Of a DNA stretch of 64,000 nucleotides, positions 31,801 through 36,494 are shown piece by piece. Each line of letters begins with the position of its first letter. Positions within the stretch are counted from its first letter, which is position 1. Position numbers and translations under genes: made by a program. The notes under the pieces are model-generated. The model was not told the DNA's origin. It did not search any database and saw only the letters and a program-made list of their open reading frames with translations. The DNA comes from Caldithrix sp. (lineage in GTDB: Bacteria; Calditrichota; Calditrichia; Calditrichales; Calditrichaceae): assembly GCA_020720405.1 (NCBI GenBank), contig DYOS01000003.1, positions 1 through 64,000 on the forward strand. The letters run 5' to 3'.

Positions 31801-32013
31801 GGGTTCGTAATGATACAAATCCACCAGCGGCTGATGAATTCTTTCAGCAATTTGGGAGATCGTATTGGCTGTGAAGCGGGTGCCGCTATGGTAATGAATT
31901 ACAAAATGATCTGTTTCAAAAGTTTTCCAGGTCAGCTCGGGATGGACATACTCGTAGCTTTGAGCAGCAAGCGCAGCGGCAAAGGCAAACAACAGAATAA
32001 GAGAACGAAGCAT
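28897..32013 (-). CDS. Metallopeptidase, beta-propeller and outer-membrane barrel fusion
   Basis: This 1038-residue exported protein combines three parts. Residues about 20-290 form a gluzincin-type peptidase with HEYTH (H121, E122, H125) and a downstream glutamate in WYAEGTAQH (E181), all zinc ligands present. Residues about 305-620 form a TolB-like propeller with repeats of the type YPVWSPDGKRAAW and LSWSPDGRYLAYA. Residues about 660-1038 look like an Omp85/BamA-type barrel: GGLIGMRGYSFYSIEG carries an RGY signature, and strands such as YLGFFADYGNAWS follow. It overlaps the upstream gene by TGATG. A surface-tethered or periplasmic peptidase with its own barrel is inferred; the substrate is unknown. 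Confidence 0.8.
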   Translation of the reverse strand: MLRSLILLFAFAAALAAQSYEYVHPELTWKTFETDHFVIHYHSGTRFTANTISQIAERIHQPLVDLYHYEPKKKIHFVVRDVDDYSNGGAYFFDDKVEIWASNLDYIMRGTKNWLQDVVTHEYTHMISIQSMIKTSKTVPYGFFQWFGYEDERRKDVVRGFPNTVISYPLSSIQIPVWYAEGTAQHQVDGQRHDYRDPHREMILRDRTLNNNLLGFDAISVFGKNSHGNESAYNQGFAFVNYLTDRFGEALLAKISDVSRQWNTLNFASVLQIATGFPAEELYGDWKTELKERYTTQTEQIRAHQVMGEPFKTEGDANLYPVWSPDGKRAAWVSNKGQDYFSFNRLYLQDMESGEEKTLTEQVSSSLSWSPDGRYLAYARREANPYGSLFNDLFLYDLQQEKEIRLTKNLRGNNPDFSPDGKSLVFVSAANGRHQLNTLRLPDDLNGSKWQTTWFDVESGVLKTQGSDDPNLFRTVAYLGESLDQLLVFPDSRQIFHPRWMPDGQRIVFDTATDYGRNLAMYSFETRTFREILNGKPEYRYPFPQGRYIYYAGSQTGIYNIYRLNEETGQSELLTNVIGGAMMPASGPDGQILFAQYENAGYKIYRLDVPNALDPQFAGYDPDYPENVPVADWPLIPEPEQVGKNYRPSYTGIHILPRLMIDYGTVKPGFYVFNADVLDKTSLIFGAAANSDGEYDLYGNMTVNDLAGKHFYIEAYNASASITDTLSIPIGEQRYLRFGRDVDFNLIEARVGTWYMLSRKIRFDLSWIYRRYGALLHLATATDPISGQKQSISEFRYNYLKGQAMEWSALMDFVAADRHQEINPSGGRYIYFRHSLESNDFLDGFSTSNQYGLESFKNYTFNQFYLDWEEYGKNPLWKSHGLALRLRAGYIDRPVDSFFNLFAGGLIGMRGYSFYSIEGRHKLIGSVSYRFPLLQDINQHLLHINLDKIYLGFFADYGNAWSEKKASLADFKRDVGVQLRLETFSFYLFPTRFFLEAAYPLDEVRHGDIRYNREWRYYFGALFDFDLRERVYPLKKQF

Positions 32014-34889
32014 CAGTGAACCACCATAATTTTAATAAGTGTTGAAACCGTTTTGGATGTGGTTTTTGCTTCGATATGGGCCAGGTAAATGCCCGAAGAA
32101 ACGGCGCTGACATTCCAGATTTTTTCATTGGCCTGATGGGCTGCACCCGGGCCGTCAAACTCGGTAACCGGATCACCGGCCAGGTCGAAAATCCTGATTC
32201 TGACCCGGGCTGCTTCGTTCAGATAATAGCGGATCGTTGTAAAATCACCCTGGTTTGGGTTGGGATAATTAAAAACGGATTTGACCGGCATAAGCCCGCC
32301 GGAAAGGGCCACCGGGTTTGAAGAAAGTGGCCGGAAACGGTTATTACCGGCAGTCAGATCGCTGCTCAGCCAGTCGCCCGGCTGAGGTAAACCCGAACCG
32401 ATCTTCCAACTGTACAAATTGCCATCGGCGCTTAGCAGAAGCAGCAGCATAAGACTGCGTCCGGAGTTATAGAAAAGTGCCGGTGCCCCGCCAATCGGCG
32501 CTGAGCAGGTCAGCGGAAAAATCGACTGCTCTTCATCGCCGATGCGGAAAAGGACTCCATTTTCACTGGCGATAAAAATTTCAGACCGGCTATCCTGGTT
32601 TTCATCCCACAACAATGGTGTGGTCAAAAAAGTATCATTTTTCTCCAGATTGAAGGATTTGGGAAAACCGCTTAATAAGCTGCCATTGAGATGACAGGCA
32701 AAAACCTGGTTTCCCGAGGCAAAAACCAGATCGGGCAGACCATTGCCATCCACATCGCCAACGGCAAATTCACCGGAAAAAGCGGGATCGGTATTGACAA
32801 TTCCTGTTGTTTTGTCCGCATCCATAATCCGGATTTGGTGCAGCGAGGGATCAAAACCTGCGCTCAGCATTTCCCCATTAGCATAAAAGGCGGTCAGGTT
32901 AATAAGCTCAAATCCCGAGGTCAGAACATACCCATCCGGGTCGATGAGCAGCGATCTGGCTTCAGCCGAAACCGGTTCAGAGCTAAGCTGTGTTCCGCTG
33001 TCAGACCATACTTCCAGTTGCAGATCAGCGGTAATAAAGGCAAGCCTGTTTTTCGCTGCCGCCACCAGACCCGGTTTGACGGTACGGTTAATGACAAATT
33101 GCTCCGTGAACTGTAAACCGCTCAGGGCTTCCGAAACCTGTAAGGCCTGAACAGACTGATTCAGCACGATATAAAGCAGAGCCGGGTTATCGGGATCTAT
33201 CAGAACCGTACTTATGGAATCCGTGGTGACCAACTGAGCCGGCCAGGAAATCTGCCGCGCTGCGCCGACCCCGGCCTCAACAAAAACCAGGCGCGAACCA
33301 TGATCATTCAGAACCAGCCATCCGCTATCCGGGGCCGGACTAAAATATTTTATGTTTTGCTTTCCGCTTCCGGGCATGGTGACGGAGATGGGATAACCCT
33401 GATCCAACCCACCCCGTTCAAAATTGAAATAGATAAGCGGACTTTTCTTTGTAGTAAAATTTTTTAGTGTAATCCCGGAATAAGCCCGGTTCACATTGGC
33501 CGCTGTTGACGGCCGGGTTTGCGGACCGAACTCATTGCGATACAGATAGGCCGGGTTACCGTCATACCAGAAATCAGCAAAATAGCCCAACTCGGTTTGA
33601 TAACCGGCATCTAACAGGGTGTAATATTTGCCAAGATCCTGCGACCCGTCGGCTTCTTCGAGATCGACCCCGCGCCGGGCATCATCGCCATTGATATGGT
33701 TTAATTCCAAACCAGCGCTGATCGCCTGGCGGTCAATATGCCAGATCAGTACGCCGCTGCCGGGCAGACCCAGATCATAATTTTCCACGCCTAAAAGAAC
33801 ACCGCTTGAATCGGAAATATGAATTTTCTCCGGGAAATGCTCAGCCAGCACTTCTAAGTAGCCGGGCAGTTTATCGGTAATTGCGGCGGCGTACAGGCTG
33901 TCCAGGTTTTGACCGGGCAGCCCGCGGTGTTCAAGCAGATAGTATTCATTCTCATTCAGCGGAATTTTAATCAGCTTTGAATGACCGCTGTTGGCAGCGG
34001 AAAAATAATTTTCCAGTCCGATTTGTGCCGAATCCGATTTTATTTCCAATGGAACATCCCAGCCCAGCCATTCCCGGGTAAAGGCTCCGGGCGGCGCCGG
34101 TATTAAACCGTTGGCATTGAGTAAACCGGCATCCATCAAGCCGAAACGACCAACTACAGTTCTGCCGCTCAGCGGATTAAACAGATCGGGCGCACCGAGA
34201 TAGCTGGCAATGTTGGAAACAAATAGTCCGGTCAGGGCAATCTGCAAACCTTCCTGATTCAGCATTTCCGGCAGGATAATGCCCTGGTTTATGAGCATAT
34301 CCTGATCAACCAGAAATCCGGAGAAAGCCGAGCCGTATATTCCCTGCAGAAAATTTTCGGTCAGGAAAAGCGAGGGGATATCCTGTGTCGTTTCATCAAA
34401 ATCGAATTCAATATCTTTACCGACCCCGGCATGGAAAACCACAATCAGATCATAATCAGCAAAACGGATATCCGGGTCGGCATCAGCCAAACCGAGGGCA
34501 TCGGCAAAAAGACGGGCCAGACCGCTGTTGATCTCCTGTTCGGTCGTATTGGGATTATAAAAGGACATTTTCTCCGGAAGCTGGTAAACCAGGTTTTGTT
34601 GCTTTGGGAAAACATCGCCGTCGATACGCACCAATCCACCGGAAACCGTATTAAAATAATGGTCGGCCGCCCGGATCTGGTCATAAAAATAAGTGCGGTT
34701 ATGAGGCGCCGGATCAATGGCATAAGGTGTGGTGGTTACACTGTCATCCAGCATCAGACCCCGGCCGGTAGTCAGCGGGTTGTCATCCGCGGGGAATTCA
34801 GCACGGATAGCGCAAATCTGTACGGTTCTCTGTGCGTAAAGCAGAAACGGAAGTGACAGTAACAAAATTAAACGTTGGATAGAGTTCAT
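32013..34889 (-). CDS. Secreted M6-like protein with a lost zinc-binding motif and type IX sorting domain
   Basis: This 958-residue protein has a signal peptide ending near LYAQ and an immune-inhibitor-A-like (M6) fold up to about residue 360. The stretch DYDLIVVFHAGVG, the later LGAPDLFNPLSG and FGLMDAGLLN, and TREWLGWDVPLEI correspond to M6 landmarks. Where M6 proteases have HExxH before LGLPDLY, this one has SNIAS (225-229), so both histidines and the glutamate are gone. A VCBS/FG-GAP-like repeat (VGDVDGNGLPDLVFASGN) follows. The C-terminus (FNYPNPNQGDF ... SGIYLAHI) is a type A sorting domain. It is probably a binding protein rather than a protease (inference). Confidence 0.75.
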   Translation of the reverse strand: MNSIQRLILLLSLPFLLYAQRTVQICAIRAEFPADDNPLTTGRGLMLDDSVTTTPYAIDPAPHNRTYFYDQIRAADHYFNTVSGGLVRIDGDVFPKQQNLVYQLPEKMSFYNPNTTEQEINSGLARLFADALGLADADPDIRFADYDLIVVFHAGVGKDIEFDFDETTQDIPSLFLTENFLQGIYGSAFSGFLVDQDMLINQGIILPEMLNQEGLQIALTGLFVSNIASYLGAPDLFNPLSGRTVVGRFGLMDAGLLNANGLIPAPPGAFTREWLGWDVPLEIKSDSAQIGLENYFSAANSGHSKLIKIPLNENEYYLLEHRGLPGQNLDSLYAAAITDKLPGYLEVLAEHFPEKIHISDSSGVLLGVENYDLGLPGSGVLIWHIDRQAISAGLELNHINGDDARRGVDLEEADGSQDLGKYYTLLDAGYQTELGYFADFWYDGNPAYLYRNEFGPQTRPSTAANVNRAYSGITLKNFTTKKSPLIYFNFERGGLDQGYPISVTMPGSGKQNIKYFSPAPDSGWLVLNDHGSRLVFVEAGVGAARQISWPAQLVTTDSISTVLIDPDNPALLYIVLNQSVQALQVSEALSGLQFTEQFVINRTVKPGLVAAAKNRLAFITADLQLEVWSDSGTQLSSEPVSAEARSLLIDPDGYVLTSGFELINLTAFYANGEMLSAGFDPSLHQIRIMDADKTTGIVNTDPAFSGEFAVGDVDGNGLPDLVFASGNQVFACHLNGSLLSGFPKSFNLEKNDTFLTTPLLWDENQDSRSEIFIASENGVLFRIGDEEQSIFPLTCSAPIGGAPALFYNSGRSLMLLLLLSADGNLYSWKIGSGLPQPGDWLSSDLTAGNNRFRPLSSNPVALSGGLMPVKSVFNYPNPNQGDFTTIRYYLNEAARVRIRIFDLAGDPVTEFDGPGAAHQANEKIWNVSAVSSGIYLAHIEAKTTSKTVSTLIKIMVVH

Positions 34890-35001: not shown

Positions 35002-36084
35002 CTAAAAGTCAACAGAAACGGAGAATCTCATGGTGTCCGATAGAGGATGGTTCTGCGCTGCGGAGATATAGCCAAAATCAAATCCGAACATATCCGCATA
35101 CATCAGACCGGCGCCAAAGGTAAGAAATTTACGGGCACCATATTTTTCGTCTTCATAGAAATACCCGGTGCGCAGGGCGATCAGGTTGCCGTACCAGTAT
35201 TCCATACCGACGGAATGGGAGAATCTTTTGAACGAATCTTCCTGCCCCCAGGTTGTGAAAAGCGCCGTGGTCCAGTCATCAGGTTTCTTGTCCTTGTATT
35301 TGCGGACCAGCAGGCGGTTCACATCGTAGAGGACATGAATCCGGTTGAATTCATCATCATACAGTTTATAGGAAAGCCCGAGACGCAGATTGGTGGGCAG
35401 CGGATCGGCCTGATCACGGTCAATATAAGTAATTTTTGGACCCATATTGGAAAGGTTAAAACCAAGACTAAGACGGTTCTGCAAATATGGTGTGGCAGGT
35501 GTCCAGAGCATACCCAGATCTACGGCAAATGTGGTGGCTACGCCTTTATCGTTTTCAGAGCCAACGGTAACATCCGAGAGTTGACTGTGGATGATTTTTA
35601 CATTTACACCGGTGCCAAGATTTTCCATTATTTTCGTGGCATAGGAAAGAGCAAAGGCATATTCATAGGAATCAAAAGTACCAAGCTCTGCCCCGTTTTC
35701 ATCGGTCCATACATTTTTACCCAGATTAAGGTAGGTAATACTTCCGCCCACTGTACCCAGATCTTCAATATAGTAACGGGCGGCCAGGTAATCGTAGTAC
35801 AGATCTTCAAAATTGAATTGGGGCAGCCATTTGGAATGCATAAAGGATATTTCGCCGACTTTGTCGGTTTCGGGATTTTCGTACTGAAAGGCCAGACCGG
35901 CCGGATTCCAGTAAACGGCATTGGCATCGTGAGCATAAGCCACACCGGCTTCACCCATTCCGCCATTGCGGGCGCCCGGAGAGATAACTAAAAAAGGAAC
36001 TGCGGCTTCACCCTGGGCAAAAACCACGGATTGCCCAAGAAAGGTTACAGCAAGAAAAAGTAGGAATGCAGTGAAGCGTTTCAT
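35002..36084 (-). CDS. PorV/PorQ-family outer-membrane protein
   Basis: This 360-residue protein has a signal peptide (KRFTAFLLFLAVTFLGQSVV) and then PFLVISPGARNGGMGEAGVA and NAVYWNPAGLAF, the landmarks of the PorV/PorQ family. The rest is a FadL-like barrel with strands such as LIALRTGYFYEDEK and ending MRFSVSVDF. A type IX shuttle or attachment role is inferred. The start has AGGAGG 6 nt upstream. The gene is flanked by a terminator (34936-34983) and by a structured leader with its own promoter (36100-36289), so it is largely an isolated, probably strongly expressed unit. The family protein at 8495-9490 is a paralogue. Confidence 0.88.
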   Translation of the reverse strand: MKRFTAFLLFLAVTFLGQSVVFAQGEAAVPFLVISPGARNGGMGEAGVAYAHDANAVYWNPAGLAFQYENPETDKVGEISFMHSKWLPQFNFEDLYYDYLAARYYIEDLGTVGGSITYLNLGKNVWTDENGAELGTFDSYEYAFALSYATKIMENLGTGVNVKIIHSQLSDVTVGSENDKGVATTFAVDLGMLWTPATPYLQNRLSLGFNLSNMGPKITYIDRDQADPLPTNLRLGLSYKLYDDEFNRIHVLYDVNRLLVRKYKDKKPDDWTTALFTTWGQEDSFKRFSHSVGMEYWYGNLIALRTGYFYEDEKYGARKFLTFGAGLMYADMFGFDFGYISAAQNHPLSDTMRFSVSVDF

Positions 36085-36254
36085 GATGGTCCTCCTGATA
36101 AAAAAAAACCGGTTAACCAGAACGTTTACCTTAACGTCTAATCAACCGGCGAAATGCACTCAGAGCGATTTGATAAAGGTAAACTTAAATAATTCAGTTT
36201 TGAAACTGTTTAAACCTTTAGCAAATAGCTGATAAGCAACCTCTTTTAAATTTC
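36085..36254 (-). promoter_or_regulatory. Structured leader with terminator and antiterminator-like segments before the PorV-type gene
   Basis: The predicted transcript starts near 36254 and reaches the start codon after about 170 nt. Near its end is a long hairpin (36109-36149). It has a 6-bp outer stem (CCGGTT/AACCGG), six further pairs with three wobbles, a one-base bulge and a 5-bp inner stem (ACGTT/AACGT), and is followed directly by nine T and then AGGAGG. About 45 nt earlier, 36176-36184 reads GTTTACCTT, the exact complement of AAGGTAAAC (36124-36132), which covers the loop and inner right arm of that hairpin. The two pairings exclude each other or form a pseudoknot, as in attenuators and riboswitches. 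No known riboswitch motif was recognised. Confidence 0.55.
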
Positions 36255-36260
36255 GGATCG

Positions 36261-36289
36261 AATATAAACGTAATCGATAAAACTGTCAA
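36261..36289 (-). promoter_or_regulatory. Consensus sigma70 promoter for the PorV-type gene
   Basis: On the minus strand a perfect TTGACA (36284-36289), a 17-nt spacer and TATATT (36261-36266) are present. It lies just past the stop of the Trm112-like gene and ahead of the structured leader. Confidence 0.8.
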
Positions 36290-36314: not shown

Positions 36315-36494
36315 TCAATCTCCGGCCCCGGGTAAAGGTTCCGCTTCATTGATCAGCATAACCGGGATGTCATCTTCAATGCGGTAAACAAGGCGGCAGG
36401 CCTGGCAGATTAACTGATTGGATTCGGGCCGGTACTCCAGATCCCCTTTGCATTTGGGGCAGACCAGAATTTCGAGAAGTTTTTCATCAAGCAT
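36315..36494 (-). CDS. Trm112-like small zinc-ribbon protein
   Basis: This 59-residue protein starts at the ATG at 36492-36494. It begins [20 protein letters not shown], and has a second cysteine pair in [20 protein letters not shown], which is the signature of the Trm112/UPF0434 family (CPxCKGxL ... C..C...Y.I.DdIPvM). In bacteria these proteins are small partners or zinc-ribbon proteins of unclear role, often encoded in lipid or lipopolysaccharide gene groups. It starts 4 nt after the thioesterase gene and closes that operon. Confidence 0.88.

Follow-up and report, generated by a model that had tools for sequence, protein, structure and literature searches.

A candidate transcription-attenuator leader RNA before porV in Calditrichota, candidate division KSB1 and other lineages

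The targets of UpxY and LoaP are the 5′ leaders of capsule and antibiotic operons (PMC7819879), and LoaP requires a small RNA hairpin located 5′ of an intrinsic terminator (PMC12691694). The leader of porV that we describe here resembles the dfn and mln leaders of Bacillus in this arrangement, with a NusG paralogue as a possible partner. LoaP, however, reads a short hairpin with a UNCG tetraloop, whereas the porV leader has a long hairpin (P1) whose apical loop is free, its terminator loop folds back to pair with P1, and its partner protein is only a candidate. In the capsule leaders of Bacteroides, a UpxY-family protein overcomes termination in the 5′ leader (PMC7819879); similarly, one leader of the porV type precedes a polysaccharide-export operon (locus L242). 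Unlike the upxY genes of Bacteroides, which adjoin their target operon, the gene of this family is encoded elsewhere here, and the main target of the leader is porV. Transcriptional riboswitches, such as those for fluoride and HMP-PP, likewise consist of an aptamer-like domain followed by a terminator platform, with long-range pairing between the two; the porV leader differs from them in having no Rfam match, in conservation that lies in helix strands, in its secretion targets, and in a competing strand carried by the terminator loop instead of the stem. Protein-sensing attenuators of the trp/TRAP type also place alternative leader structures and an intrinsic terminator before the gene, but the porV leader has no visible repeated protein-binding triplets and belongs to different genes and a different lineage. 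In the open-access literature, we found nothing on a porV leader, nor, apart from Rfam scanning, on structured RNAs of this lineage; the scan of the Caldithrix abyssi genome listed B12, TPP and Moco riboswitches, all of them at other genes (PMC5317091).

The window, a stretch of 64,000 nucleotides, derives from a Calditrichaceae (Calditrichota) MAG. All leader parts lie on the minus strand, in the order TTGACA-17-TATATT promoter, leader of about 155 nt, terminator, nine U, Shine-Dalgarno and porV. The features are as follows.

36315-36494, minus strand: Trm112-like gene, 5′ of the promoter and on the same strand as porV
36261..36289, minus strand: sigma-70 type promoter TTGACA-17-TATATT (TTGACA 36289-36284, TATATT 36266-36261), near-consensus with 11 of 12 matches
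near 36254, minus strand: predicted transcription start, as expected from the promoter position
36158..36237, minus strand: P1, a long hairpin in the MFE fold (5′ strand 36237-36215, GCTTATCAGCTATTTGCTAAAGG; variable apical loop; 3′ strand 36179-36158)
36176..36184, minus strand: shoulder/P1 3′-strand segment GTTTACCTT, exact 9-nt complement of the terminator-loop segment; covaries
36124..36132, minus strand: terminator-loop segment AAGGTAAAC, partner of 36176-36184
36108..36150, minus strand: intrinsic terminator hairpin (core 36149-36109), MFE −22.9 kcal/mol
36100..36108, minus strand: U-tract of nine T, read from the sequence, then ATC
36091..36096, minus strand: Shine-Dalgarno AGGAGG, read from the sequence; retained in relatives
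36084-36082, minus strand: porV start codon ATG, 15 nt beyond the U-tract
35002..36084, minus strand: porV, type IX secretion outer-membrane channel/shuttle protein, the putative controlled gene (NF033710, an NCBIfam equivalog, 265.6 bits; cut-off 250)
32013..34889, minus strand: next gene 3′ of porV, M6-like inactivated metalloprotease with a type A sorting domain (NF052323 519.7 bits, below the cut-off of 600; TIGR04183 32.9 bits, above the cut-off of 23); likely a type IX cargo, judging from these matches

The layout reported by the first-pass annotation, with a promoter, leader, terminator and Shine-Dalgarno ahead of a PorV-type gene, proved real and more widespread than first noted. The PorV-type assignment was borne out, as the product scored above the equivalog cut-off. 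The nine T and AGGAGG were also present, but the tract does not run straight into the Shine-Dalgarno as had been stated, ATC lying between them (3 nt). The long terminator hairpin was far more stable than its shuffled counterparts (mean −8.9 kcal/mol, z −5.3; 0 of 200 equally stable) and is retained in relatives, and the fold of the full leader was more stable than 199 of 200 shuffles (z −2.9). At the sequence level, a promoter, a leader and an intrinsic terminator ahead of porV make up the general plan of an attenuator. The hairpin could instead be an ordinary terminator of the upstream gene, accompanied by a chance complement and followed by a porV promoter further downstream, and the same-strand orientation of the Trm112-like gene would suit this reading. 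We regard it as barely credible: a conserved promoter sits between the upstream gene and the hairpin, merely 15 nt separate the U-tract from the ATG, and the upstream gene changes between lineages while the leader stays. A transcription start downstream of the hairpin had been named as a finding that would overturn the attenuator proposal; as far as sequence can tell, the promoter 5′ of the leader was kept at the same place in all 30 Calditrichota leaders checked.

The 9-nt complement between 36184-36176 and 36132-36124 is exact, as the first-pass annotation had it, and is kept with covariation in relatives. Its upstream strand lies within P1, which that annotation had overlooked and which is the most conserved part of the leader (Calditrichota consensus GCCUAU...UUUGUUAAAGG / CCUUUARCAAA). 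We analyzed the pairings in A2, a MAFFT alignment of 22 Calditrichota leaders built without structure information. In P1, 82.9% of cells were paired and 8 pairs had double changes; the corresponding values for the terminator were 90% and 5 pairs. The pairing between the terminator loop and the P1 shoulder was present in 86% of cells, with double changes in six of its eight pairs, and its covariation score was matched by none of 500 shuffles, which ignore relatedness. Slid controls do account for relatedness: shifting the partner by 1–3 columns lowered the loop pairing to 24–56% paired, and the same controls gave 33–51% for P1 and the terminator. Compensatory changes, proposed earlier as the check to make, were therefore present in P1, in the terminator and in the loop/P1 pairing. 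The last of these persists while its letters change, reading GTCTACC/GGTAGAC, GACTACCTTT/AAAGGTAGTC, CACTTTT/AAAAGTG, AATCTGTCT/AGACAGATT or ACAGTCTACCTTTA/TGAAGGTAGGCTGT.

The claim that such a complement would rarely arise by chance stood only in part. In the single sequence it is only mildly improbable, with p of about 0.2 for the loop/leader duplex against shuffled loops, whereas comparison across relatives supports the pairing. A per-sequence duplex-energy test of loop against leader gave a median p of 0.07, with 42% below 0.05; this test is noisy because the terminator arms themselves pair with anything, and a permutation test was used instead. Among 63 divergent leaders reduced for similarity, the longest loop/leader complement had a mean run of 7.22 with the loop's own leader, above all 300 permutations in which loops were dealt to other leaders (5.91, sd 0.14, maximum 6.28). 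The long complement is absent in some lineages (e.g. L019 and L202). The leader has a conserved alternative pairing that would contact the terminator or compete with it, as in attenuators.

We found porV orthologues as usable loci in 37 of 40 Calditrichota genomes. P1, the terminator and the Shine-Dalgarno occurred in the same order in all 37 readable leaders (30, plus the seven loci L198-L204). Loss of the hairpin or of the complement in relatives had been set as a ground for rejecting the proposal; relatives keep both. In Calditrichia genomes of three families, a model of the full leader (R1) found a single strong copy each (85–125 bits), in every case at porV. In 20 genomes outside Calditrichia, it gave no match better than E 0.04. 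Opposite-strand matches of R1 at the same places were discarded as palindrome echoes, not extra copies. Genome G079 encodes two PorV homologues; the second (G079:C247:3896-4921) carries a single in-frame TAG and may be a paralogue in decay.

In candidate division KSB1 and related lineages, many porV leaders have their elements in the same order. A cross-lineage block, GGAG-N3-GCCUAU-N5/6-UUYGYUAAAGG, is followed by its complement CCUUUARCGAA, then by CCGAAUG...CAUUCGG-U7-9 and the Shine-Dalgarno. In KSB1, the 3′ strand GGCUCACC pairs with either the 5′ strand GGUGAGCC or the terminator loop GGUGAGU. The KSB1 alignment (MAFFT, A3) was unreliable around the P1 3′ strand, and pair counts come from the Calditrichota alignment A2 only; counts from a further alignment, A4, whose 3′ arms had been picked for complementarity, are biased by that choice and are not taken as proof. 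The leader was missing at two Ignavibacteria-labelled porV genes (L089 and L090) and at several KSB1-related ones (L131, L136, L162 and L183). Across KSB1 and a number of further lineages, the outer stem of the terminator (CCGAAUG/CAUUCGG) is almost invariant, which is unusual in an intrinsic terminator, and this near-constant stem may be recognized in sequence.

The block also bears on leader-peptide attenuation, in which a ribosome on a short ORF would control the terminator. In a few lineages it reads GGAG-NTG-CCT-ATN-NNN-GTT-CGT-TAA, an ORF of 6 codons. A Shine-Dalgarno with a start and at least 6 codons, however, was found in only 9 of 66 leaders, the 5- or 6-nt spacer in the block shifts the reading frame, and in KSB1 the most frequent form, GGAGTAAGCC, lacks a start codon at that place. 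With so few leaders bearing a short ORF, we disfavored this mechanism and consider it highly improbable.

We then searched 147 KSB1-centred genomes with R2, a model of the P1 block trained on porV leaders only. E-values from these searches are rough, as they come from a short calibration. All 30 matches at E ≤ 0.1 lie before type IX or surface genes. Comparison of their positions with the porV tables identified 24 as porV leaders; four precede operons of lipoprotein, propeller and PorV/PorQ-family genes (G067, G072, G073 and G198), one precedes the gene for the type IX sortase PorU (G195), and one precedes an operon for a nucleotide-sugar dehydrogenase, SLBB export protein, Wzz and flippase (G062), which is the polysaccharide-export case L242. 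All six non-porV matches have both the P1 block and a terminator. Two weaker matches lie before a similar lipoprotein gene (G207) and before porU (G290). Second copies likewise retain their own loop complements, CGAACCAGG/TCTGGTTCG in G067 versus CGGACTAGG/CCTAGTCCG in its relative G072. A match at G016:C2:296036, followed by no terminator of the leader type, was judged a probable chance hit, and matches at E 0.1–0.3 without the block (G159, G196, G231, G235, G304 and others) were left out of the counts. At L239, L240, L241 and L243, the operon behind the leader encodes a lipoprotein (one of which has a choice-of-anchor X domain), a BNR/propeller protein with a FlgD-like C-terminus, and one or two PorV/PorQ-family proteins.

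The positions of these copies before porU, PorV-family and polysaccharide-export genes fit a signal that would concern secretion or envelope state. They also bear on the idea that the leader mainly yields a stable small RNA acting elsewhere, with porV expressed by constitutive leakage. Promoter and terminator do delimit a compact structured RNA of about 155 nt, but the element tracks porV, together with a small number of type IX or surface operons, and is always a leader, not a free-standing unit; also, an RNA acting in trans would not need the loop/P1 covariation. We find this idea improbable.

We consider it likely that the region is a new family of transcription-attenuator leader RNAs whose target is porV, joined in some lineages by further type IX secretion or surface genes. 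The conservation, the covariation of all three pairings, the conserved promoter and the gene association are observed; the layout is conserved with compensatory change and has no Rfam match, which upholds the attenuator interpretation first proposed. We infer the terminator function, the off default, the switch direction and the kind of signal from the sequences. Transcription would begin at the conserved promoter, and P1 would form first. The terminator would then fold right before the Shine-Dalgarno, and by default polymerase would stop short of porV. Since part of the P1 5′ strand is repeated in the terminator loop, this loop could pair with the P1 3′ strand or shoulder. A factor or ligand that keeps P1 from holding its 3′ strand would allow this strand to capture the nascent terminator loop, resulting in read-through; by another route, a bound factor would modify polymerase to the same effect.

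In folding calculations, P1 plus the terminator was favored over the forced pairing of the loop with the P1 strand by about 14–22 kcal/mol, suggesting that the default is probably termination. Since the antiterminator fold is clearly weaker at equilibrium, the switch would need co-transcriptional kinetics, or a bound factor or ligand that frees the P1 3′ strand. Alternatively, the loop/P1 pairing could be a kissing contact that merely stabilizes the fold in the off state. Extending the attenuator reading, we give roughly even weight to an undescribed RNA class in Calditrichota, candidate division KSB1 and other lineages that would form an RNA-controlled type IX regulon (porV, porU, PorV-family operons and a polysaccharide-export operon). 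In this leader the loop of the terminator would imitate one strand of the sensor hairpin, and a single trans-acting factor or ligand would report secretion or envelope state.

If the sensor were a small molecule, P1 with its conserved 5′ block would be the binding domain of a riboswitch and the terminator its expression platform. The block is strongly conserved across several lineages, and the terminator platform with alternative pairing and no Rfam match would suit this possibility. We hold it only tentatively: most conserved residues belong to helix strands and not to a pocket formed by a junction or loop, the P1 apical loop is free in length and sequence, and the leader precedes secretion components, not genes for metabolism or transport of an obvious ligand. 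That no known riboswitch class was recognizable at first reading agrees with Rfam: its version 15 covariance models gave no match at the gathering threshold in the window and 30 related loci (20 KSB1-type and 10 further), a relaxed scan (E ≤ 10) gave chance-level matches only, and the T-box, B12, TPP and Moco riboswitch models had no match at the leader. The leader is very probably an undescribed attenuator family that, from its sequence, belongs to none of the named ones.

Instead of a small molecule, a protein might bind P1 in the nascent RNA and carry polymerase past the terminator, in the manner of LoaP at the dfn hairpin; a UpxY-type NusG paralogue is the strongest candidate. Of 40 Calditrichota genomes, 39 had NusG-family proteins, and in most there were exactly two, the housekeeping NusG and a second of about 170 aa. 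Four second copies that we examined belong to the UpxY family (NF033644, 128–162 bits; cut-off 100), and their scores against the LoaP model were 39–64 bits, versus a cut-off of 125; the polysaccharide-export copy described above would fit this reading. Co-occurrence is rejected as proof of a UpxY role, however, as the paralogues are found with or without the element, including in KSB1-side genomes whose porV has no leader (G107, G113 and G121), and some element-bearing genomes, which are incomplete MAGs, give a single NusG match (e.g. G131). While a UpxY-type protein is encoded in the genome, no upxY gene lies at the controlled operon: the Calditrichota paralogue adjoins sulfate-assimilation and phosphodiesterase-like genes on another contig than porV. 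Binding of UpxY to an RNA hairpin is not established in PMC7819879 or PMC12691694. Protein-read antitermination by such a paralogue is thus a possibility to which we give limited credence. In most Calditrichota, as at G000:C195:7540-7818 (L263:3834-4322), the paralogue gene lies beside cysN/cysD/adenylylsulfate-kinase-like and alkaline-phosphatase-superfamily-like genes, with no adjacent capsule operon.

If the attenuator reading is right, a core secretion gene is preceded by a widespread orphan regulatory RNA in phyla where genetics scarcely exists, and the competing strand of this RNA is carried by the terminator loop rather than the stem. As far as the open-access literature shows, RNA control of type IX secretion is apparently undescribed. 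The system would then be readily accessible: the RNA is short, its gene set has been identified, and a host, Caldithrix abyssi, is in culture.

Some leaders have additional features around P1. In some Calditrichota (L003 and L005), at the equivalent of window positions 36228-36237, P1 begins as a perfect palindrome, GCTTATAAGC; in the DNA, a protein could also bind at this site. In L076, L077, L092 and L102, GGTCTGG in the P1 loop matches CCAGACC overlapping the 5′ arm of the terminator, and in L080 the corresponding segments covary as GGTTTGG and CCAAACC. This extra pairing of the P1 loop with the terminator arm is possibly an antiterminator restricted to the lineage of these five leaders.
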